64,000 nt of DNA from Apostichopus japonicus (lineage: Eukaryota; Echinodermata; Holothuroidea; Aspidochirotida; Stichopodidae), in NCBI RefSeq assembly GCF_037975245.1, contig NC_092566.1:16837001-16901000 (forward strand), read 5' to 3'. Made by a program: the position numbers and the translations under genes. Positions 43,401-60,560 of this stretch are shown piece after piece (within the stretch, counting starts at the first letter, position 1; every line of letters starts with the position of its first letter). The notes under the pieces are model-generated. The model had not been told where the DNA came from, ran no database searches, and worked only from the letters and a program-made list of their open reading frames with translations.

Positions 43401-46400
43401 AATGATATTCAATATTCTTATATATGTTTGTTTGATGTTTAGTCCTTTTTAAGAGATTTATATGTTCTTATTTTTTGAAGAGTTCTTTGTAAACAACATG
43501 CATTTTCATGCTTTTGAAAACTGCACGTACCCGCGATTGCCTCTTTAAATAGAATCGGTCGCAGGATATCAGTGTATAAATATTGAAGCACCTCTGTCTT
43601 GAAAACGTTCCTGTTTATGAACATTGACGTTATGAATAACGTTTTATGAACTGTTATGGACTGTATATTTCAGTATATAGGACAATATTCCAATTATAAT
43701 GTTTGAATGCATAAACAACTTTTGGTCTTAAAATACATAACGGAATTGTTAGAGAAAAACCCCACAGGAAACCATATAAATCATGCGTTTATGCATGTAT
43801 AGGCTATTTAACTATCGTGCAGCGTGGCTCGTTTACAAAAGTATATATATGGTTTACACGCATAAATGGCGCTCAATTATAACACATCAAACAAGCATGT
43901 GCGTACTTTCCTGTGCTTCGTATTCTAACTAATGCAGTTTTCGTTTTTTGTTTTTTATCTACAGAGCATGTTTAGCGACGCATCTTCCTACTTGTATAAC
44001 GCCACAAGGCAACGTGCCTATTTTAAAAACGTCACAATACTAATACCTCAAACGTGGAACGCCAGTTGGGCTACGGCGTCCCCCGTAAACTACACCTACG
44101 ACGCCGCGGATATTATCGTTGTTCCTCTTGGACCAACTCTTTCAAACGCGTCTTCCTTGCCGCCGCCTCCACATTGCAAGCACTTCGAAGGATGCGGCAA
44201 ACAAGCTGCTTACATCCAGTTTACATCCGATTTTCTGACCAGAAATAACACCAAGCAATACTACGGAAACTTTGGTGAGTTGCATTTATACGCCTTTCAA
44301 TTTATATTTTTACATGTACCGTATTATGCACATTACGTTTACTCAGGCTACACCAGTAACCATGCATATTATATATATAAAAAAAATTAACAAAATTACA
44401 AAATATGTTTCATATGGCAACTAAGTGCGTTTTTGCATATCATGTGATTACGTCATGTTTTGAATCATACACATTCAATTCTTCCAAGTTTAAAGGTACA
44501 AATATGTATGCGTCACAGAACTGCGTAATATATTTAGTCTTTCTTATAAAAGGAATAACGTACAATAAATATATTATTTGATCCAATCAATGAAGCCATG
44601 AAGCTGGTAGTTGGACAAATTCAATTTTGTTCAATATTGGTCCTATACATTTTTTGTAAGCCTGACTTTGCTATAGTGCAATTAATTAGATAGTGGTCTT
44701 ATTATTAACATTTGAACGCAAATGCGTTCTTAATCATCCATCCGTAGTGGCAAAATTGAGAGACCTTATAATCACGAAGTGTAAGAAAAGTTTGTCCGGT
44801 ATAAGTAGCCTGCAGCACATGTTGCAATTTACCGTAGCCCCTAGCGCTAACTATAAATATTTCAATGGGATATTAATTACCTATTTGCATGGGCGTCAAC
44901 AGGTGGGGGACGGGGGGACATGTCCCCCCACGTTCAAAAGTGGAGGGGATATCATATCATTTGTCCCACCCACTTTTCAGAGTAGTTATTAAAAAAAATC
45001 ACATGCATATGCGCGATTTTCTATTTCAGGTCAAGAAATCTGGACTCCCTGGGCCCCTGCTACCTATCACTTGCACCGTCATTTATCTCCCATTCTCCCA
45101 ATATCCTAAATCTGCCCATTTAATTCGTTCGGGGGGGGGGGGGGGGGGAGACCATTCGAAAGTGTATTGAATCTTGCACACATGTTGTTTGTATGGGTTC
45201 CAAGGGATTAGGTAAGCCATACAGGTAGATGGTGATGAGTTACTATGTTCATATCACTACCTCCAGTCCCTTGGACTGGACGGACGAATAGGGGTGTAGG
45301 GGTTAAGTAATTTAGATCTTTATTGTTGAGTGCCGGCTAGGCGCTACACACGCTCTGCGCGCGGTGCCTTTTTCTGATTATTATTATTAAAGTACCTGGG
45401 CACATAACAACTGACGTCTCGCACCTACATGCATGTATTATATATACCACTCCACTCATCCCGGAGGTGACGGCGCCACCTTTTCAATATTTCGTTTGAG
45501 ATGGACGCTGTGTAATTCGTCTCCCTTGGTGTCAGAACGGCATCTTTCTACCAGTACTTTCTGTCGGAATTTAGTTTTGTGAGACAAAATTTCTCCTCAC
45601 AGATCTGGTTCTGATGTAACTAAAAACGACTCAGGAAGGCCGTCTCCTGCGATCTAGGGGGTCTTATGTACCCAAAATTTTCTGGTACGCTACGCGCCAA
45701 CCAATGGTGGCGCTCCGCTTAGATAGTATAGTGTCCCCCTCACTTTCTGAAACCTGCTGACGCCCATGCCTATTTGTGTAGGCATACGTGATGCAATTCA
45801 TGTTCATTTTATTTTCTTATCAATTTGATACATGTGTTTGTAATTTATATAACAATGAGCACGTGAAAATTGAAACATAAAGCAACACGTACGTGACAAA
45901 ATGTCGCCAGTACACTGTAAGAAATGTACGTAATTTTACAGGAGTTTTGCCGCGTGAAATAACAGTCGATCCTGTTTTTCTACGTTCTTACGGTATTTTA
46001 CCCTAAAAGTACAGTGCTCAGACGAACAATTACGTAAACATGGTAAAATAACATTATATAATGTTAATGTATCGTCATCCACTGTTATTTAACATTAGCG
46101 TATCGTTATTGTGTAATTTAACTGTAGTGTGTGTAAATGTACGACACCTTTCTTGTTAATTCACGATGTAGTAACTTCAATTGACATTTGAAGGACGTAA
46201 AATGACGCAGAAATTGTAAAGTAACAGGCATTTCATCATCTTCTGTTAATTAACAGGGAAATATCAGAATCTTGTAAGTTTACGGTTGCAATCTGTAATT
46301 CAACACTGTGTTTTACGGAAAAGTATAAACATTTCAAGCAAGTATAGGCCTGTATTATATACACTTGCAAGACGTATAGGCCTATGCTAATGCAAACATC

Positions 46401-49400
46401 GTAGACCCCTTTCCAATGAGTCCCGATATTGTAGTGTTCAGTACAAAACCCCGCACCGAGTTCTAAAATTTCCTATACGCTTGTGAATTCAACTATGAGC
46501 GCTGTTTCGGTGGGTTTTTCACAGTTGTCTCCCCTAATCATGGAAAATCAGTTTTTGTACCGTATATTACCTATATGTAGTTGATGTTACTGTTATTGTG
46601 TTATTATCATGGGGGAAATATCCTGCTAACGTGTTGAAACAGTGATTCCGTTTACGGCAGAGGCGGCGGATATAGGTTGGACACATAACCGGAATCCCGC
46701 CGCCATGGTTTACGGCACAAAAATACAGTGTTCAAGTAGCCTCAGCATTAATAAGGTAAAAGGGCAAAGTATAGTCATCTACGTAATGTAACTTAACGGT
46801 ATACAAGTCGGTGCGGACTGGCCATACGGACACTTGGGTTGAATGTCCGGTGGGCCAGTGGGCTAGGTAAAAATGGGCTGGGTTGTGCCCCCCCCCCCCT
46901 CTCAATTAAAGTTCTGTGTTGCCTTAAGTCCTGTGAAATGTCATATTCGGTGATATAGGAGATATTTAGCCAAACAATTTGGTTGTAAGTTACGCGCCAA
47001 CTCGAGTGGCGCTCCCAGATAGTAAGGAGCTTAGATTGCACGATGCGGACCTCTCTACGACGAAAAGACTTGCGTTCTGCGCATGCGTCTACTTCACCAT
47101 CTCGTTTTCCCTGAGATTTTACACCGGGTGTCAATTTTTACATTGTACTCAAAACGAAAACTTGAGATAGCGTGTGACGTCATATGTCGCCTACTCTGAC
47201 CAGGCCAAGATAACCACATGACTGTCATTTTCCCCGTAGTAAGAATCTTAAGCGCAAAGCCAACAGGACCATTGCGACGACGTACACTGTCGGTTTACTT
47301 CCCGTTGCACTACTCCGCGCCGTGCAATCTAATTCTATATTGTCACGAATATGTAGCCCTCATCGGGTAGGTCACCTAATTTTTGCCTGACGGTATCACT
47401 GTAAAAATCCGTCACTAGCTGTTTCATAATACTGCGGCGTGAAATATCTGTTATTTAGCTTTCTTTTAGATATTTAACCTAAACGTAAAGTGCTCAGACT
47501 ACAATCACATAAATATAGTAAAATAACGTTAATTTATTGTCATCCTTGAATTGAAATACCGCTTGAATTTGTTGTGTATCAGTTATCATCACAACAAGTT
47601 TCAACTTGATATTACATTGGCTTTAGTCTCGCCTATTGGCTACGTTGATCACATGGTGTTATTGCGCCAACCAGGAGTCTTTTAACTAACTTCCTTTTCG
47701 CGGCGTTTTTCCTTACTATCCTTCGTTCGTATTACTAATGCATGCGCCTCGCCGAGGCAAGTTACAACATGCAGGATCGGAACAGTACATACGTATGTAT
47801 GTAGAGCGTGTACCAAATTATATCGAGCGCTGAGCGAGAACGAGTAAATGTACACGTACGTACGGACAAACATAAATAAATGTGAGTGCTGTCCCTGTCG
47901 TATCACTTCGTAGTTCGTCTTACATGAATATCCAAGTTTCAGATTCAGTTGGACAAGAATGCAGTGTCAAACAGGCAAGTGATTTATTGAATTTCCAAGA
48001 TTACAAGCATGAAACCTGTATGTGATACTTGCAATTTGCAATGCAAGAATATCACACATTACGTTAATCACTGTAGGACCCATAGGCACATTCGAAACGC
48101 ACGTTTTACTTGCTGCATAACTGGTTGTATTCGAACGTTTTATACATACAAAGCGTTAGTGTCACATATTGCAAGGAATCACACAGCAGCAAGCTATGAT
48201 CAAGGGGATGGCCATGATGAAGGCCTAGGCTCATATCGAAATGTAGGTGTTGGTGTCAAGTGTATGCTAGAATTTTGCCAACACCAAAGCTCTGATATCA
48301 AGGAATTGATCTCTCACCTAAGAGGACATATTGAAAGTGGTTTAAAGGTAGATTGCCCATTCGAAAATTGTAAAATACAATTTGGCAATAAGAAATCATT
48401 TTCATATCACTTGTCTCGTCATCATAGAAATTATAAAGTAGGTGATGTAGCCTCAAGGTATGTTGTGACTGTGAGCCAAGGCCCCACAGATGTGGTAGGT
48501 GAAGCCATATACCCTATAGGCCTACATAATGAAGACAACTCTGACAGAAATGAATTAGATGAACAAGACTCTGTTGAAACTGAGCAGGAACAGGATCTCA
48601 AAAGTCGTACTAGTAGTAGCCATGAAGGGGATACCGTCGTTTGTGGTGAAAACCCCTCTGAAAATGTAAAAGAATTTACACAAAGCGTTGCACTATTCCT
48701 GTTGAAACTGCAGTCCAAGTACTTGATTCCTAATTCAACCATTCAAGTAATTGTTGAACAGATGTGTTTCCTCAACCAACTTGGAAATGAGAATACAAAA
48801 AAATGTATTGTAACACAACTACAAACAGCTGGCATAGGTCTAGGCCTAGCTGATGAAAGATCTAATGAACTTGCTCAAGATATTATGACTGATGTTTCAG
48901 AATTAGGATGTTCTCTTGCACCTGCTAGTGATTCCCAACATTTTCAGTCTCCAGAATGTGGAAAACTGCGATCTGGATATATGAGAAAAAAATATTGGAA
49001 AGAGAACTTCAAATACGTGAGCCCAGAATCAATATATTTGGGAGAGCCAAATGGTGGCAAGAAGGAATATTGTCACTATGTGCCAATTTTGGAGACACTA
49101 AAACTCATGTATGAGGATAAATCTGTTCAAAACCATATCATACCAGTAGATAAGGAAAGAAGTGGGTATAGTGATATTCAGGATGGGAAAGTATTTCGGC
49201 AGAACACATTTTATCAAAGAAATCCAGATGCTTTGCAAGTTATGCTGTTTCAAGATGGGTTTGAAGTTGTCAATCCATTGGGATCTTCTAGAAACAAACA
49301 CAAGATGCTTGGAGTTTATTGCACACTGGGTAATATTGATGCTAGATGTCGATCACAAATTGATCCTATACAGTTAGTTCTGTTATGTAAGGAAAAGACA

Positions 49401-52400
49401 TTGAAAAAAATTGATTCTCAGAGGGTTTTTTCAAGGCTCATTACAGATTTAAAGCATTTAGAAGAAAATGGTATTGTACTTAAAAATGGTTATGTTGTTA
49501 AAGGGACTGTAGTTGCAATAATTGGAGACAATCTAGGATCCCATTATATAGGGGGTTTCTGTGAAAGTTTCAGTTCTCACTATTATTGCCGTTACTGCTT
49601 GCTTTCAAAGATAGAAATTGCCCAAGGGCTTCCTTACGTTGAAGGAGTGTATCGCACACGTGAATCATACAGGAGAGCTCTACAGTCGCTGGATGACGAT
49701 GGTGAATCTGTGCATCATGAGGGAATTAAATTTGATTCTCTCTTTAATTCTCTGACATATTTTCATGTAGCCAGTCCTGGGCTTCCTCCATGCCTTGGCC
49801 ATGATTTATTTGAGGGTGTTGTGGACTATGACATGGCCCTTTTTATCCAGTATTTTGTAGCTAAAAAGTGGTTCAGCTATGAGAATTTAAACAGAAGGTT
49901 GCAACTGTTTCCATTCAAAGGTCGAGACTCTGCAGATATGCTGACTAGTGCAGTCAAGCCTCAAGGAGAAAGGATTGGTGGACAAGCAGTGCAAAACTGG
50001 TATTTCTTGCGTTTTTTCCCCCTTGTTGTATACGGGCTAGTTCGTAACATAAAGGACCCAGTATGGCAGTTACTTCTGCAACTGAAGGAAATTGTTGAAA
50101 TTATTGTGTCTCCAACTTTGCAATCATCTCAGGTAGCTTTTCTGAAAGTATTGATAGAGGAATATCTTGAAGGGAGGGCCGACCTCTTTCCTGAAAGGAA
50201 GTTACGACCCAAGCATCATTTTCTACTTCATTATTATTACCTTATTTTCATGTTTGGACCTTTGATCAAGGTTTGGACTCTCCGCTTTGAAAGTAAACAT
50301 TCTTTCTTCAAAAGATGTGCCAGATACTGTCAAAACTTTGTCAACATTACTTCAACATTGGCAGAAAGGCACCAATTACTGCAGGCATATTCCTTTCATG
50401 GACGTTTGTTTGCTGATGATGTTAAAGTAGCAAAAGGGATCCCATTCCACCCAGAGTTATATGCCGAAAACATCCAAAAAGCTGTTCTTGCTGTTCAATT
50501 TACAAGAAAGACTTGTTTGTGATAATAAAGGAAGATGAGGACTGGACATTTGCTTGCATTATGCTAATATTGGTGGTAAGAGAAAAAGTTGTTTTTATTG
50601 TGCAGAAATACCAGACTACCCATGTGCATGAATATGGCTTATACCAAGTGAAAAACAGGGCAGCAGATTCAAACCCTGTTTCGTGTGTGGCATACTCAGA
50701 CCTTCTAGATTATTGTCCTTTGTCAGCATACAAGGTTGATGGGCAATACATGCTTTCATTGAAAAACAAACCCACCAATATGTAGATTATTTTACAGGCT
50801 AGACAGTTCCAGCACGGCTTCTGACACTGATACTGATAGAGATACTGTCATTATAACAGACATAGAGAGAGTGTGCTGGAATAGTGTACCTGACATAAAC
50901 GACGAGCAATTAAGAAGACTCTTGGCAAAATTAGAGGCAGCTGGTGTATTGACTACAGATGATCTGGAGTACATCAGAGAAGATGATATTTTGGGAATTG
51001 TCACACCCATCCAAGCAAGAAAACTGATCAAAGGATTTAAAAAAGGTAGGAACTTACTCAGTACCATCTGTTTTACCTTCCCCATCAACGCTGTAAAGTG
51101 AAAACAGTCTAAGAAAATAAGCGAACAAATGTGACCATGTAGATTTTCAATATAGCAAAACATTGCAAACTAGGCTACATGTCAAATTTATTCCATCAAA
51201 GTTCACTGAAAAGTTCATATTTTACGTCAACTGTACAGTCAGGGGTAAAGTGGATTAATTGACCAATCTGCACGCGCAACCAGCAAATTGGTGGTGACAA
51301 ATGTCTATATTAGCAATTAAATCTGAGCACAAAAATCCTCACATATACTGACAGTAAGGTCCATGCCGTATTTCCATTGAAACAGCTTGTGTGAAATTGT
51401 AATAATTTCATTGGACTAGTTTGTATTGCGCAACCGGTATCAAAAAACATGCAGCCTCCGAATTTTTGAACAAAACTTATATAAGAACTGCATTGTATTG
51501 ATTAGGATCGTTACTTTTAACGTGTGTATGCAAACATGTATGGTTGTCCCATGGACAGTCTGCAAATAAAGTTGTCCCAGCCTAAATTTACGATCCGAGG
51601 CAAACAGACAACAGCTGCTTTTAAGCCCTGTATCTGCATACAAAAGTTACTTCCAGGTGGAAGGGCTTTAATCAGAAACCTTCTACCTAAGTTTATATGT
51701 TGGAACTGTGTTCTAGCTTCAAACCTGCGAATGTTTGTAGCTTTGCGTGGTTATCATGTTTATTATGATAGTAGCACGGCATGTTGTACTCGTCACCCAG
51801 TATAGTCACATATTGCTGCTGTCTCTGTGCCTGAAACTACGTACCCCCTAGCCCAGCGTACAGTGCAGCTACTTGTACTGCGCACACCAGGAAAATGGCA
51901 GGAACTTTGAGGAATTCTAGTTAAAAATGTTAAGTTTGGTTTGAGCCGCAGCCAGTATTTAGCTAAGCCTAGGCATAAATGTTACAGGCATCTAGCCTCT
52001 AGGCTATACCTGGGCTAAAACAGCATTGTGTTGTTGCATGTAGCCTAGCTAGCTATAATACCTGGGCTAACCCCGTTTTAATTGTGTTACGGCATGTACT
52101 GCATGCACTAATTATAATGTTACTGCACTGTTAGTGTTAGTGTGTTACACTATTATAAAAGCCTAAGTTGGGCTAAGAAGTCAAACCTACACCAAGCTTA
52201 GCCAGATATAGTGGTACAAATGCAAACCATTACCCCGCAACTGTTAGCTTGACAATTTGAATGTAGCTGGCTGCATTAATTGTGCACTGTCCATTCACTC
52301 TGTTGAACCATATTGGCTGGCAAAACGAACAAATTCTAAACCCTGGCTCACGTCAGTGCTGTATAGCCACAACCGACAGTAAGCAGTCGTACTGTGCGCA

Positions 52401-55400
52401 TTAATATGCAGGGCCTTTAGCTGAATTAATATGTTGTGTTCTCAACAACACAGAATACATCTATTCCCTCTATTGTGTAGCTGCTTTTTAAGTGACTACT
52501 CTTCTAGAGATAATCCTAAACTGTACAACTACATAGCTTTGCAGAGATGGATTATCATTCCTCTTGGCTTTGACATGGACTCCATTATCCCTAAATTGTG
52601 CTACAAGGGGCACATATATGATGGATTGCTACTGCATGGTTGGGAGAGAACTTTAACCAAATTTTTACATTATCACAATCTTGACAGGTTTATGATATTC
52701 AATGTTGTCACAGAATTTGAACCACCTGTTTTTGGTAATTTGTTAATTAAGGGGTTCCTACATATTCTCAAAGTCAGTAAATCAAGCTCTGTTAGCCTTT
52801 AACTAGCTGTGAATTTGTTGTTTATGTTATCAAAAGTACAAATCTGCTTATTTTTCCTAGTGCATGACTGCATGTACCAATGGCCCACGATGTAATGTAT
52901 TGTATTCTCACTTACATGCATGTGGACTTAGGGCCTGCAAGTTATGTAAATATTCAATTTTCACAAATTAAACTAAGGCTGAAGGAATCTATGCCATGCA
53001 TGGCGATGGCGCATGTTTGTATGCGTGGGTGGTGTGTGTGACGCCTTGCCTTGTAAACACGATATCACAAGAAGTGAAAATCGCTTGAACTTCAAACTTA
53101 GTATACTGGTAGCCTGTGGTGAGTAGATAACCCTTAGTGTTTTTCATGGAGGTAAAAGGTCATTTGAGTTCAACAGCTCGGGTCAGCAGGGGTCAAATTG
53201 TGAAAACCTTGTAAACATGATATCACAAGAAGGGAAGCTTGGACAGATCTCATATTTGGTATGGGGGTGTACCTCATTGAGTGCAAGAAGCCTATTGTTT
53301 TTGGTGGAGGTCATTTAGGTCAGCAGGGGTCAAATTGTGAAAACTTTGTAAACACAATATCTCAAGAAGGGAAGCATGGATCAGTCTCATATTTAGTGTA
53401 TAATTGTACCACATTAAGTACAAGAAACCTGTGGTTTTTGGTGGAGGTCAAAGGTCATTTCGGTTCAGCAGGGATCAAATTATGAAGACTTTGTAAACAT
53501 GATATCTCAAGACGGGAAGCTTGGACAGATCTCATATATGGTATTAGGTGTACCACATTGAGTGCAAGAGCCGTATTCTTTATGGTGGAGATCAATTGTC
53601 ATTTGCAATCATCGGGGGTCAAATTTTGAAAAGCTTGTAACAACGATATTGTTACATGGGAAGCTTGGACAGATATCATTTGGTATTTAGGTGTATAGAG
53701 TGTAAGAACCTATTATTTGTGGTTGTTAATGGTCAGTTGTGGTCACACTGCTATTAAATATCTCAAGAATGGGAGTTGTCATTGTGAATGTATTGTTTAT
53801 CACATCTCAATGCTTTATGCTGTATTACTAAGATCAAGTATGTTGTTAACCCTCTCTATACAGTACATCAGTGAATGCAATGCATTTTTACATTTTGGTT
53901 AAAACGGGCAATTGATCTTATCTTGTTCTTATTTGATCGTAGATGAAAGCGCATCAAATGCAGACTCATCACCATCGAGTAGTGGCCAGAGCCGCACTGC
54001 TAGCCGCTGGCAACCAAAGGAAGTGACGCTGTCTCTATCACCAGGTTCTACTTATTTTCTTCTTTTTTTATTGGCTAATTCTGTCAGCCAAAGGATTCTG
54101 TGCAAGAGTTCGCTAGTTTTTGACACTTAATTGTGGTTTGTCTGTGGGTTTTTATCCAATAATAACTTTTCAATGCTTGGAAACTCATTTACATGATTTC
54201 TAATGTGATAAACATTGTTTTTTGTATGCAATCAAGTTGGTGCATGTGCTTGTCTGTATGTGAGGCCCTAGCTTGTAACACAATATTTCAAGATATATAG
54301 GTAACTACAGCAGATTTCATATTTGGCATGTGGCTTCCCCATACTACGGTAAGCACAAAAACCCTATTGTTTTGGTAGAGGTGAAAGGTCATGTGTGGTC
54401 AGCAGTGGTCAATTTGTGAACACATTGTAATCGTTAACACAGTATTTCAAAAATGGAAACTTGGATGCTATATTAGGGGTTTGAATGTACGTTATATAAT
54501 GTACAAGCACCCCATTGCTTTGGTAGATGTTCCACATTGAGTGTAAGAGCCTATTATTTTTGGTGGAGGTTAGAGGTCATTTGTGGTCAACAGGGGTCAG
54601 ATTGTGAAAATGGTGTAACACAATATCTCAAGAAGGGAACTTGGTATGTAATTAGCCTTTGGGTGATGTAGCCCTTGTATTTTTTGAGATCATGAACAGA
54701 GGTGAAAGTCTGAACCTTGTAAATAAGATATCTGAAAAAGTAGAAGTTGCTCAATTGAACTTGAAACTTGCTTTATGTAGGTACCCCTTGGTGAGAAGAT
54801 GATACCTCCTACTTGTATAAGGCAAAGACCTTAGGTAAACCCAAGACCCTTGCATTTTTCATCATTTCTGGTCAGCAGTGTGTCATGTAGAAGAACCTTG
54901 TAACAGAAGTTGCTGCTCATATTGGCAAGGAATCACCAAGTCTTTTGACTTTCTGGTTTATTGAATTGTCAATTGAAAGCATCTGTAAAGATACAGTAAA
55001 TCTTTGTTTTTATATATTTTGTAGGTCAGCTTGTGTTGATTGATAAATGTGACAGCAATCTGCTTGTGGAAAGCAAACCTTATTGGCACTGTTTACATTG
55101 AATGACTTATATCTGAGTTTGTGTGTGGGGAGGGGGGACAAATCAATGTTTATAAGAGCTTCCATATTCATCCCCTGTCCCATACTGAATTTTGTATGAG
55201 CTACATACTGTACTATTATTGATTCAAACATTCAATTGTTTAAATCTGCACATATTCTCTAATTTGTTCCTTGAATTACAGTTGAAGGAAGCAAGTCTGC
55301 CCCAAGTAAGGTAATAGATTTGGATATGATGTTGAGCAGAATTCCAAGAAAAACAATACATATTTTGGAGAGAAATGAAAGACTCCCTCCAAGAATTCGT

Positions 55401-58400
55401 AAAGAATTTGTGCGACTAGTGGTAGATAACATTATTGACTGCAAAGGAGCTACATACCCTAGAACAAGTGAGTTGCGTTTATATGCCAGCCAAATAGTCA
55501 GCAAGTATAAAACACTTGGAGACCATCTTGATGGAGTGGTAGTTGGAACAGGATACGAGAGCTTACTGAAACAATTCGTCAATCGAGTGGACAATCTTGG
55601 GAGATCTGTTGTTCAGGGATCACTGAAAAGAAAAGCATTGGCAGGATGCAAAAGTCCCAAAGAGAGACTAGCAGACCAGTACGGGTGTGTAAATTGGCAG
55701 CCTGAGTCTTTGCCGGAGGGTGAATCTGGGGAATCTCAAAGAAAGATTATGAATGAGCTGAAAAGCCTGTGGGAGTCTGGGACTGGAAAAACAAAGGATG
55801 TAAAGAACAAAATGATACACACATATGCTACACAAAGAAAGGACATTAATGAAAAAGACTGTGTTCTGACAGATATCATAGAAAACTGGCCTTTTTTGTT
55901 TGAGGAGGAGTACTTGCTGGCTCACTTCAAGAAACTTATGGGAATTGACATCATGGAAAATATGTCATCTAACTTTGAGCATAGAGTTCCAAAGCTTTAC
56001 AGATACTTTCAACAAGTAGCCAAGCCAAAGATTGAAGCAACCCACAAAAAGATACAAGATGCAGTTGACAAGAAAGAAGACAATAGCCCTCAAGTAATGG
56101 GACTGCTAATGCTTCTGAGCGAGCACCTAGGAGAGGATCTGGGAGAGCACGTAAAGAGTACTGACAAGGTAAGCAAGGAACTGTTTCTCATAATTTCAAA
56201 ACTGTTATTTTCCTTACTCATTACCGGCAACTAGCTTCCACTAGCATGTTATGCCTCAGGTAAGGTAGAGTGCCCAGAGACCAGCAACCAAGAGAGGGGT
56301 GGATTTAGGGACTATAAAACTAGAAACAGTTGTGCACCCAAGGGGCTAAGTGTTTGTGAAAACATAGTCTGACGGGTTTTACTCAAACATAAAGAGAATT
56401 GATCATACAGGGCCTCCTCATAGGACATGCACAATTTCTACAGATGCTCTTGAATTGTTTTATGTAAAAATCAGGCCTCAGCTTTATAAAGCATATTATG
56501 CTCTAAATTGATTGAATTTGTTGCCAATATTTCATTTTAACCTATCTTGCCTTTTCTCCCACTGCTGACCATTGACTGTATCAATTTTCTTCAGGAAAAG
56601 AGTGCTGACACATGCATTGAGGCCATGGACTTGCAAGGCCCTGTTGTTCTGGTTGCACATGGTAAGTGTTGTTTGTTTTGATTGTTCATGCTACTCCATA
56701 GTGTACTGATCAGTGACTAATTACCACACTAAATACGCTACTGGAATTGTTCCAACAAAAAATATGTCTACGTAACCATTCATTTATGTCAATATCAAAA
56801 TATGGTACGTACAACCATGCAGTTTACTCAGGACTGCATCATGATTGGACACCATGCATGTTGGGTAGTGTCTGCAAAGGTCATACAGTGGTCAAATATA
56901 TAACTTTATACTTACTGTAAATTCCTTGTGTGTGTATTCATCAAGCCATGCTATTTATAAAATTGTATGCTTTGCCCCATCAATCTCTGATGCTTTGTAA
57001 TAGGACTGGCAAATTAAAGGTAGTCAGGACTCGCCCAAAGGCAAAATGATAACAGGGCCATCACCAACTTTCTCTTGTCTGCAACCCAAAGTTCTATCTA
57101 AGCTCCGCCCATTATTTACGTTGGTCTGCACTCTTCCCATTGCAACTATATGTGAAGTCCCTCCCATTGTTTACAACTCACTCTCATCCAAGTAAACATT
57201 GACCAAGCCAGATCTGGTTTCACCCCCTGGTAAGCATCAGCAGGCCTTGTCCTTAGCTCCCCTTAGGGCAATAGAAAAAGTTCTGCAAGTCTCTTCTTTG
57301 GACCTGACAACTAAATAATTATGACCAAAGCTTACCAGACTCACCTAACATGGTATGTACACAGTACTACACACTAAAGCTGTAATTGACACCTTGTAGT
57401 ACACAGTATATATGCTGGTATGATTTGCACAATGTAGAAATGCATGCAATTTCTGATAATTCAATATTTTCTTTTCAAAGGGAAAGTACTGACAGCAACT
57501 TTGTTTTCTCTCGCCATTGGAGGGAAAGAAACGACTAAAGTAACCAATCCTCTATCGGGTGTGTGCGTATGGTTTGCAGCTTATTATGTCTTCAACCTAA
57601 AATATCCAGAAAAGGCGCCGGCGCTCTTGGAATTTATCCAACGGTGAGTAGTTATATTGTAGTCAAGGACGACCACTGCCTCGTCTAAGCGTCAGGAAAT
57701 AATGGGGATTGTAATTATTGTGCAATCCTAGGAATCCCTGTAAGCTTTACATGTCCCCACTCTTGGGCAAATTGCCCTTATTTCACAAGCAGTTTCCCCA
57801 TATCAAATTACACTACAATCCGACATAACAAACTCAGCATGCTTAAACGAATTTACTCCACCATCAAGTCCCAGAGTTATGAAGGTTGGGTATTAAAAAC
57901 CATTAAAAGTCCCTACCCTAGAGTGGACAATGCAACTGGTAATACTGACCAATATTGCCACTAAAATAGAGGTCATGAAGGAAGTATACTTTGAAAGTGC
58001 ATAACCATCAAATCGTTTGCCCTATCCACTTTAGGTGCAACATCTTTAATCAAGTTAAACATTTTTAGACTATACTTCAAAATGTTATTGCGTCCTGATG
58101 AATTTGGATGATATCTCGCTCAATATTTGAGTATGGAAGACTCAAAAAAGGCAAATGTTTAAACTCAGTTAAAGTGTAATTACCAGATCCATAAACAACT
58201 ATTTCCTGTAACACATGTACTTTATCCCAAAATACCATGCTGCAAAATGCCAACCTGCCTATGGCCATCATGGACAATTGATTATAAAAGGTTTCCAATC
58301 CTTACTATAATACATGCATGGGTATTTTACTATATTGTTATTATTATATGATTATATATAATTTTAAAGTTTTCATCCAACATGAGGAGATACCATTGCA

Positions 58401-60560
58401 TCCAAATATTTGAAATTGCCCAAGTACTCTATAGTGATGCATTTGTGGTGTTGCTTGATTAAAAAATAAATACTGAATAATGATTTTGTGTTTCCTGCAG
58501 GATCTTCCTTGGAATCAACCCGGACTGTGGGACTAAGAGACAAAAGATGAAAGGAAAGAAATCTGCTGTCAACCCAGTAGTGCTTAAACTTGCAGGCGAG
58601 ATGAGTAACTTTGAAAATGACTGGGCATTGTAGGTCCCAGAATGGGATACATCCATCATGGTTACAGAACACTCTCAAAACTTTTTTTTGCTGGATCAAG
58701 TTTGTATTTAAAGTTATAACACCTCTCTTTTTCAGTACTTATAGAGGTGGTTTGTCTCAGATATTAGGGTAAATAGCCACACATTGTGTGCTACACAGAT
58801 TTTGATTGCTTGTTTTATTTATTTAGTTTGTTATTTACTTTTCATTTTTGTCCTGTTTCCATAAAGCTTGTAATTGTTTTGAAAAGTTTAAGTAAGTAAT
58901 GGTGTGCTATTGCATACATGTGATTTTACCTAGCTGGTTACTTGAATAGACAAGTTTTTTTTCCAATTCTATAACTCCTAAAGTGATTCATGTGAAATCA
59001 GTATTGCTTCTAGGAAAGATGTTAGATCATGAATCTGTTATTTAAGCAGATGTATGTGGTTTTCTGTTCTGGATATACACAATACTGTTACAAATACAAA
59101 TTTGCACTAAAATATTTCAGAAAGTTCTAGTTGAAGAAAATTTTGGCAGCTATGACATGTGTTTCTGATATCAAGACATTTCTGAAAGGTGAAATCTGGT
59201 TATGGGGCTACAGTATGATTTCATTTTTATGGAGATCACAGACCAAAAATAATTTGGCTAGCCTATCTTTTGATTTGAGAAATTCCTTGTCCATGTTAAA
59301 AATGCTAAATTTTAGCATAATTGATTTTATGTAATGTTTTTTTGATAAGTTGCTGTTAAAGCAAAGTTAGTATGGGGCAGTCCTTGGTTTCTGATGTCTT
59401 TGCTATTTCACAGCAGCATTCTCAGGCTGGCATACAAAGTATGTAAAAAAAAAACTATATTAAGGTGTTAAATCAAGTACAATATCTTTTATGAAATTCA
59501 TTTCACCGTTCACACTGCCTACAAATTGACTTGCTTTGACATATATCTGTTCATTTACAGGAGGTATTTGCGATGGCATTGTAAGTGTCAGTACAATACC
59601 GTGTTTCAGGATGTTTTCATTGTTATTTCTATGTTCCTTTCAGTTAATAAAGGATATATGAAACATTTACTCACAGTCCACATGTTTTTTTTTAATAGTA
59701 CATGTCTGCTAGTTCAAGTCACAGCTAGTAAATGAACTTCACGAAACGTTTTTATACAGTCTATGTTATTTTACAGTATAGTACCGTCCGCCAAAGTAAC
59801 AGTATAGTACCGTTTTTTTACAGATTTTTTTCAGTAAATATACGATGGGAAACGTTTTTTCACGGTCCGTGTTATTTTACGGTGGACTACCTTCCGCCAA
59901 ACTGACAGTAAAATGCCGTTATTTTGCAGATTTATTTCAGTAAATATATGATGCGAACCTTTTTTTCACGGTCCCTGTTATTTTACGGTGGACTACCTTC
60001 CGCCAAACTGACAGTAAAGTACCGTTTTTTTACAGATTTATTTCGGTAAATATACGATGGGAAACGTTTCCCCACGGTCCGTGTTATTTCACAGTGCCGT
60101 TTTTTTACAGAAGTGAGATGCTGTAAATACATGACGGGAAACGTCGTTTCACAGTCAATGTTATTTTACGGTAAACTACTGGCGTCCAAGACTGCCAGTA
60201 AGTTACCGTTTTTTTACAGATTTATTTTTTACAGTGTACGTACTACTGTACCTGTTGGTTAAAACGAACTTCAAAGTTCAAACAGTCGGAACATTCAAAA
60301 TTGACAACGGCATAAAATGTAACAAGGAACAATCAATGAAATTAAGAGCATAAGAAATTAGTTTAAGTCCTGGATCAAACATTTAAAGGTATTTAAGGAG
60401 TCGGCATTCTTTCACTCCTTTCGGACTACTCCTTAGTAGCAACATATGAAAATGTTTTCTGATGATACTGGGTATTACCACCCTCTAAGAATAGATTATT
60501 TCGTGTGGTATACCTAAGAGAGTGGTTATGTATATTGTTCGCGTGATGGAACATGTCCAC

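Follow-up and report, generated by a model that had tools for sequence, protein, structure and literature searches.

A CACTA-type transposon of the sea cucumber Apostichopus japonicus pairs its transposase with a co-diverging gene for a predicted SAM-like protein

The maize transposon Spm depends on the two proteins TNPA and TNPD. Its subterminal repeats are recognised by TNPA, and intron 1 contains the large open reading frame (ORF) (as described in excerpts of PMC2613891). Among animals, the CACTA element SmTRC1 of Schistosoma has an ORF of the Transposase_21 family, 2-bp target duplications and alternatively spliced short products that have been likened to TNPA, and its authors detected no relatives of these second proteins (excerpts of PMC1636069). 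Duplications of 2 bp in animal TRC elements are also reported in part of a paper on horizontal transfer (PMC4298943). Here, we describe a CACTA/EnSpm-like element with two genes in a stretch of 64,000 nucleotides of the sea cucumber Apostichopus japonicus (contig NC_092566.1, positions 16,837,001 to 16,901,000, hereafter the window; Table 1). An initial annotation, made from the letters alone, had seen in this element a possible parallel to the two-gene system of En/Spm. The parallel is closer than it guessed, because introns of the second gene contain almost the entire transposase ORF in the NCBI annotation. What is new, as judged from comparisons of the sequences, is the conserved, co-diverging SAM-like partner in an animal CACTA element: No report of a SAM-domain partner of such an element was found in searches of the open-licence PMC literature.

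The second gene usually travels with the transposase. A search of the genome for the transposase gave at least 64 matches (48 of 388 candidates scored) and a search for the second gene at least 77 (77 of 310 candidates scored); these were merged into 47 transposase and 58 second-gene loci, with one second-gene row, exon 2 inside the window transposase, left out. At 38 of the 47 transposase loci, a second gene is present downstream on the same strand at a spacing of 17 to 8,497 bp. Of the 58 second-gene loci, 38 are linked in this way, and the other 20 may be fragments or belong to transposases among the unscored candidates. The idea that the nine exceptions are divergent transposases without a second gene was ruled out for the two that were inspected over the 9 kb downstream, each of which is followed on the same strand by a diverged form of the second gene (A3 profile, E 4.4e-18 and 2.5e-22). 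Among 30 loci with 1.5-kb flanks (L010-L039), the exon for the predicted SAM-like domain (SAM exon) was found in 23. The seven others are five copies of family D, L020 and L036. Of these, L020 departs from its own family just ahead of the place of the SAM exon, but exons of the second gene occur at a distance of 8.4 kb downstream; L036 corresponds to a 5' fragment of the transposase in the C15 copy. That family D is devoid of the second gene, as suggested by five of five copies with no SAM exon within 1.5 kb, was rejected: one copy has this exon at 2.2 kb.

The sequences also indicate that the second gene co-diverges with the transposase and that both genes are under purifying selection between copies. 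The transposases of five families (A, that of the window, to E) are 40.8-60.0% identical, and these identities correlate with those of the second proteins (r 0.88; 2 of 120 label permutations, the observed one included, were as high), with A-B and C-D as the closest pairs for both proteins. Between the copies of the window family, pN/pS was 0.19, 0.25 and 0.38 for the transposase and 0.17, 0.25 and 0.37 for the second gene; Fisher tests on the copy pairs for both genes gave p values of 0.0001 to 0.05, the three pairs being non-independent as they share copies. The transposase is broken in two of the three copies, whereas the second gene is open in all three. These data bear on the idea that the second gene is a host gene that was captured by chance and is carried as a passenger. 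Host gene capture by CACTA elements is well known in plants, and the second protein has a relative in Haliotis that ends differently at the C-terminus. Nevertheless, we reject this explanation as very improbable because of the linkage (downstream on the same strand at 38 of 47 loci), the selection and the co-divergence, and the gene has been kept across the five compared families, with transposases that are only 41-60% identical.

The boundaries of the element are well defined. The 13-bp ends with one mismatch, the TA on both sides and the tandem subterminal repeats noted in the initial annotation are all present (Table 1), and its expectation that other copies would share these ends was borne out as well. 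When the initial 588 bases of the element were searched against the same genome, two further full-length copies of the window family were identified, one on contig C15 and one on C10, along with two short partial matches that are both on C17. All three full-length copies start and stop at identical bases and are flanked by the duplications TA/TA (window), CA/CA (C15) and TA/TA (C10). Matching ends by chance are thereby ruled out, since the three copies end alike while their flanks and duplications differ. The copies are 98.5-98.8% identical over aligned columns, with a noncoding divergence of 1.3-1.8%, and the family has therefore moved recently; on this sequence evidence, we regard the element as a recently active transposon. 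In the region of the 137-144-bp repeats, 282 bp near 53254 are missing from the C15 copy, and an insertion-like difference of 918 additional bases is seen at 54337 in the C10 copy. The deletion that truncates the transposase is found only in the window copy and is absent from those on C15 and C10; in the C10 copy, the frames of both the transposase and the second gene are open.

The other families are built in the same way. In a single copy from each of the families B, C, D and E, both genes are bracketed by ends beginning with CACTGTTAAAAA, with 12 to 17 matching bases, in elements of 15,947, 13,671, 19,754 and 13,362 bp with TA duplications; the end search in these copies required a matching duplication. 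In an independent check, all four additional copies of families C, D and E ended at the predicted bases, with the duplications TA, TA, TA and TG. Altogether, matched 2-bp duplications flank 11 of 11 insertions (nine TA, one CA, one TG), in four of which the ends were picked by the search that required the match. Our comparison of the ends covers families A to E; a sixth family is represented by L038. The five families have in common the CACTGT ends, the 2-bp duplications and the subterminal motif TTTTACRG. Ends of the form 5'-CAC..GTG-3' together with duplications of 2-3 bp are those of CACTA/EnSpm elements, and the sea cucumber insertions show both. The motif, TTTTAC[AG]G, was picked on family A, where the last 620 bp of the window element contain nine sites, and was then counted in families B to E. 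On either strand of the first and last 700 bp, families A to E have 11, 5, 6, 11 and 9 sites, as compared to seven in 71,060 bp of the interiors of the five families, and none of 1000 Markov shuffles of the ends reached the count in any family. The sites are few in families B and C, with none at the 5' end of B.

The structure of the second gene has turned out to be more intricate than was initially annotated: It is indeed spliced and on the same strand, but it is not confined to the region downstream of the transposase, as in the gene model exon 1 precedes the transposase ORF and exon 2 is located within it. Nearly all of this ORF would thus belong to introns 1 and 2 of the second gene. Over 564 amino acids, the protein encoded by the eight exons of the C10 copy matches the NCBI model P0050 of A. 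japonicus without a difference; the window protein differs from P0050 at six residues, and the product of the C15 copy is open and one residue shorter. The six downstream exons are joined in frame at GT-AG sites. The second gene is real, and by the gene model it overlaps with the transposase ORF on the same strand. If exon 1 is left unspliced, the short frame that begins with its ATG closes at 47982 and thus before the start codon of the transposase at 48009; whether or not exon 1 is spliced would be a simple switch between the two products. In the gene model, then, a single transcription unit would yield both proteins through splicing. Alternatively, the element might contain two independent genes that do not overlap and that each have a promoter, and exons 1 and 2 of P0050 might be an annotation artefact that bridges two units. 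P0050 is an automatic gene model whose exon 2 consists of a piece of the transposase coding region, and in families B to E an in-frame ATG is present near the start of the SAM exon. In the window family, however, no in-frame ATG is found upstream in the open frame of the SAM exon, and the splice phase of this exon requires an upstream exon that provides two bases, as exon 2 does. Moreover, P0050 uses a GC donor, which such annotation pipelines rarely call without transcript support. We consider two separate genes unlikely.

Table 1. Coordinates of the features of the element (window positions unless a locus is given)
Feature	Position	Strand	Remarks
Whole element	45913..60236	+	14,324 bp; TA duplication at 45911-45912 and 60237-60238; defined by three copies with the same end bases
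5' terminal inverted repeat	45913..45925	+	CACTGTAAGAAAT
3' terminal inverted repeat	60224..60236	-	inverse CACTGTAAAAAAT; 12/13 identical to 5' repeat
5' subterminal TTTTAC[AG]G motifs	45934 and 46311, within 45934..46318	+	
Second gene, exon 1	47959..47974	+	MQCQT + G; GC donor; C10 product identical to P0050
Transposase ORF	48009..50522	+	C-terminus truncated; 52-bp deletion at 50490/50491
Second gene, exon 2	49921..49999	+	entirely inside transposase ORF, same frame
Second gene, exon 3	50798..51045	+	predicted SAM-like domain
Imperfect array of 137-144-bp repeats	53049-54744		mostly within second-gene intron
Second gene, exon 4	53943..54044	+	
Second gene, exon 5	55282..56168	+	main conserved domain
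Second gene, exon 6	56595..56661	+	
Second gene, exon 7	57481..57643	+	
Second gene, last exon	58501..58633	+	stop codon 58631-58633
106-bp subterminal tandem array	59743..60096		3.3 copies
Open transposase, C10 copy	L008:3109-5940		944 amino acids

For the transposase, the description as a tnp2-like zinc-finger protein holds in part. The ORF has four C2H2-type finger patterns in the N-terminal part of the protein. Similarity to Transposase_21 (PF02992, tnp2) was detected in 10 of 44 aligned relatives (best E 5.6e-6) and is thus a statement on the family, as Pfam did not call this domain in the window transposase itself, even at E 1. The predicted fold of the transposase matches that of RAG1. 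In the alignment, which comprises 44 of the 49 relatives found by protein search, residues D418, D509, C529, C532 and E763 are present in all 44 proteins, and H738, H739 and H743 in 43. The C(2)C and H(3-4)H motifs are the defining signature of the transposases of the CMCT clade (CACTA/EnSpm-Mirage-Chapaev-Transib) in the portions of PMC12730594 on which we rely. A sequence search of solved structures with the transposase profile returned only zinc-finger proteins among the 60 of 172 matches listed. In viral contigs, no relatives were confirmed; the alignment of the second protein was too diverse for searching there.

For the second protein, the SAM domain proposed initially is supported by the fold and by the relatives, both of which suggest a SAM-like N-terminal region, but not by Pfam, which found no match to a SAM domain in the window protein itself. 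The structure matches (VIA rows) mostly span residues 45-121. The sequence search of solved structures with the profile of this protein gave nothing below E 0.55, and the main domain, which has barely been tested, had no convincing fold match (Foldseek best E 0.93). Within one genome, relatives were found in at least five families; others are among fish, spider and mollusc proteins. The fish and spider relatives (P0051-P0058, P0062 and P0063) are uncharacterised, and three of them are from Labeo rohita. They resemble proteins annotated as SAMD3-like, so that an element of this kind may have given rise to the SAMD3 of vertebrates. In the protein P0059 of Haliotis asinina, a homing-endonuclease zinc-binding region (PF05551, best E 2.4e-10) replaces the usual C-terminal end; this may be a fusion in the gene model. 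The second-gene relatives next to two of the most diverged transposases (L058:341-1363 and L059:168-1442) differ in their N-terminal region, where the SAM-like sequence is replaced by another. As a lead, this region is possibly PB1-like, as judged from the pattern Y.D.D...[VI].L, which we take to be a PB1 signature. Pfam names no PB1 domain in these two proteins, and a sequence search of the PDB with one of them gave just two weak, unrelated rows (E 1.7 and 1.8).

We suggest, as the more probable explanation, that the element is a cut-and-paste DNA transposon of the CMCT clade that requires two proteins of its own, the partner serving to pair its ends. In such a mechanism, exon 1 with its GC donor would be joined past most of the transposase ORF to give the second protein, whereas the transposase would be made if the intron after exon 1 is kept. 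Cleavage at the CACTGT ends would then be carried out by the transposase, with its four N-terminal zinc fingers, in the way known from RAG1 and Transib. The second protein might multimerise via its SAM-like domain, either on the TTTTACRG sites near the ends or together with proteins bound there. Like maize TNPA, it might in this way pair the ends and control the promoter of the element. A need for both proteins in transposition would be in keeping, though indirectly, with the selection on both genes and with their linkage. It is conceivable, although we regard it as rather improbable, that the motif is read by the four zinc fingers of the transposase and that the second protein acts as an anti-silencing or expression factor that opens chromatin instead of binding the ends in the cut complex. 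However, Pfam does not annotate the second protein with any chromatin-modifying domain, and in the plant precedent it is the second protein that binds the repeats (excerpts of PMC2613891).

Beyond a probable requirement for two proteins, it is tempting to speculate that these elements form an old class of animal two-protein CACTA transposons with an exchangeable N-terminal polymerisation domain, SAM-like in most of the families read and possibly PB1-like in the two most diverged, with polymerisation on the TTTTACRG sites near the ends and with splicing around a transposase that has the RAG1 fold and bears a BAH domain. This wider proposal is tentative, and we hold it with somewhat less than even confidence. 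Whether large animal CACTA elements require a partner, as En/Spm does, is now directly testable, since a defined gene pair is open in the C10 copy and a candidate DNA site is at hand. The finding also bears on the origin of two-protein recombinases such as RAG1/RAG2.

The target duplications of Transib and RAG are 5 bp long, and the RAG2 protein is characterised by kelch and PHD features. The sea cucumber element differs from RAG1/RAG2 (ProtoRAG) and Transib by the 2-bp duplications at all 11 insertions, and from RAG2 by a partner that is SAM-like and otherwise helical in the model. With the fungal ESTA/Plavaka elements of the CMCT clade, it shares the C(2)C and H(3-4)H motifs and an extra gene beside the transposase, and with ESTA also the TA duplications; there, however, the extra gene encodes a TET/JBP dioxygenase and the hosts are fungi (excerpts of PMC12730594). 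CACTA-type ends, a tnp2-type transposase and subterminal repeats are common to our element, maize En/Spm and soybean Tgmt, and as in maize, where the large ORF is in intron 1, the second protein would, by the gene model, come from an overlapping, alternatively spliced unit (excerpts of PMC2613891). In contrast to plant CACTA elements, the duplications here are of 2 bp rather than 3 bp, and the ends read CACTGT instead of CACTA. Moreover, the transposase has N-terminal zinc fingers and a BAH-like end, which are not listed in the portions of the plant descriptions that were compared (PMC2613891), and the partner is SAM-like, being set beside plant TNPA by description rather than by direct comparison. 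Among animal CACTA elements, alternatively spliced products have a precedent in SmTRC1, according to the parts of its description cited above; TRC ends, however, begin with CCC, and the partner described here is common to at least five families and to fish, spider and mollusc proteins. If the wider proposal is true, the pair would be the animal counterpart of TNPA and TNPD and an independent analogue of RAG1 and RAG2.
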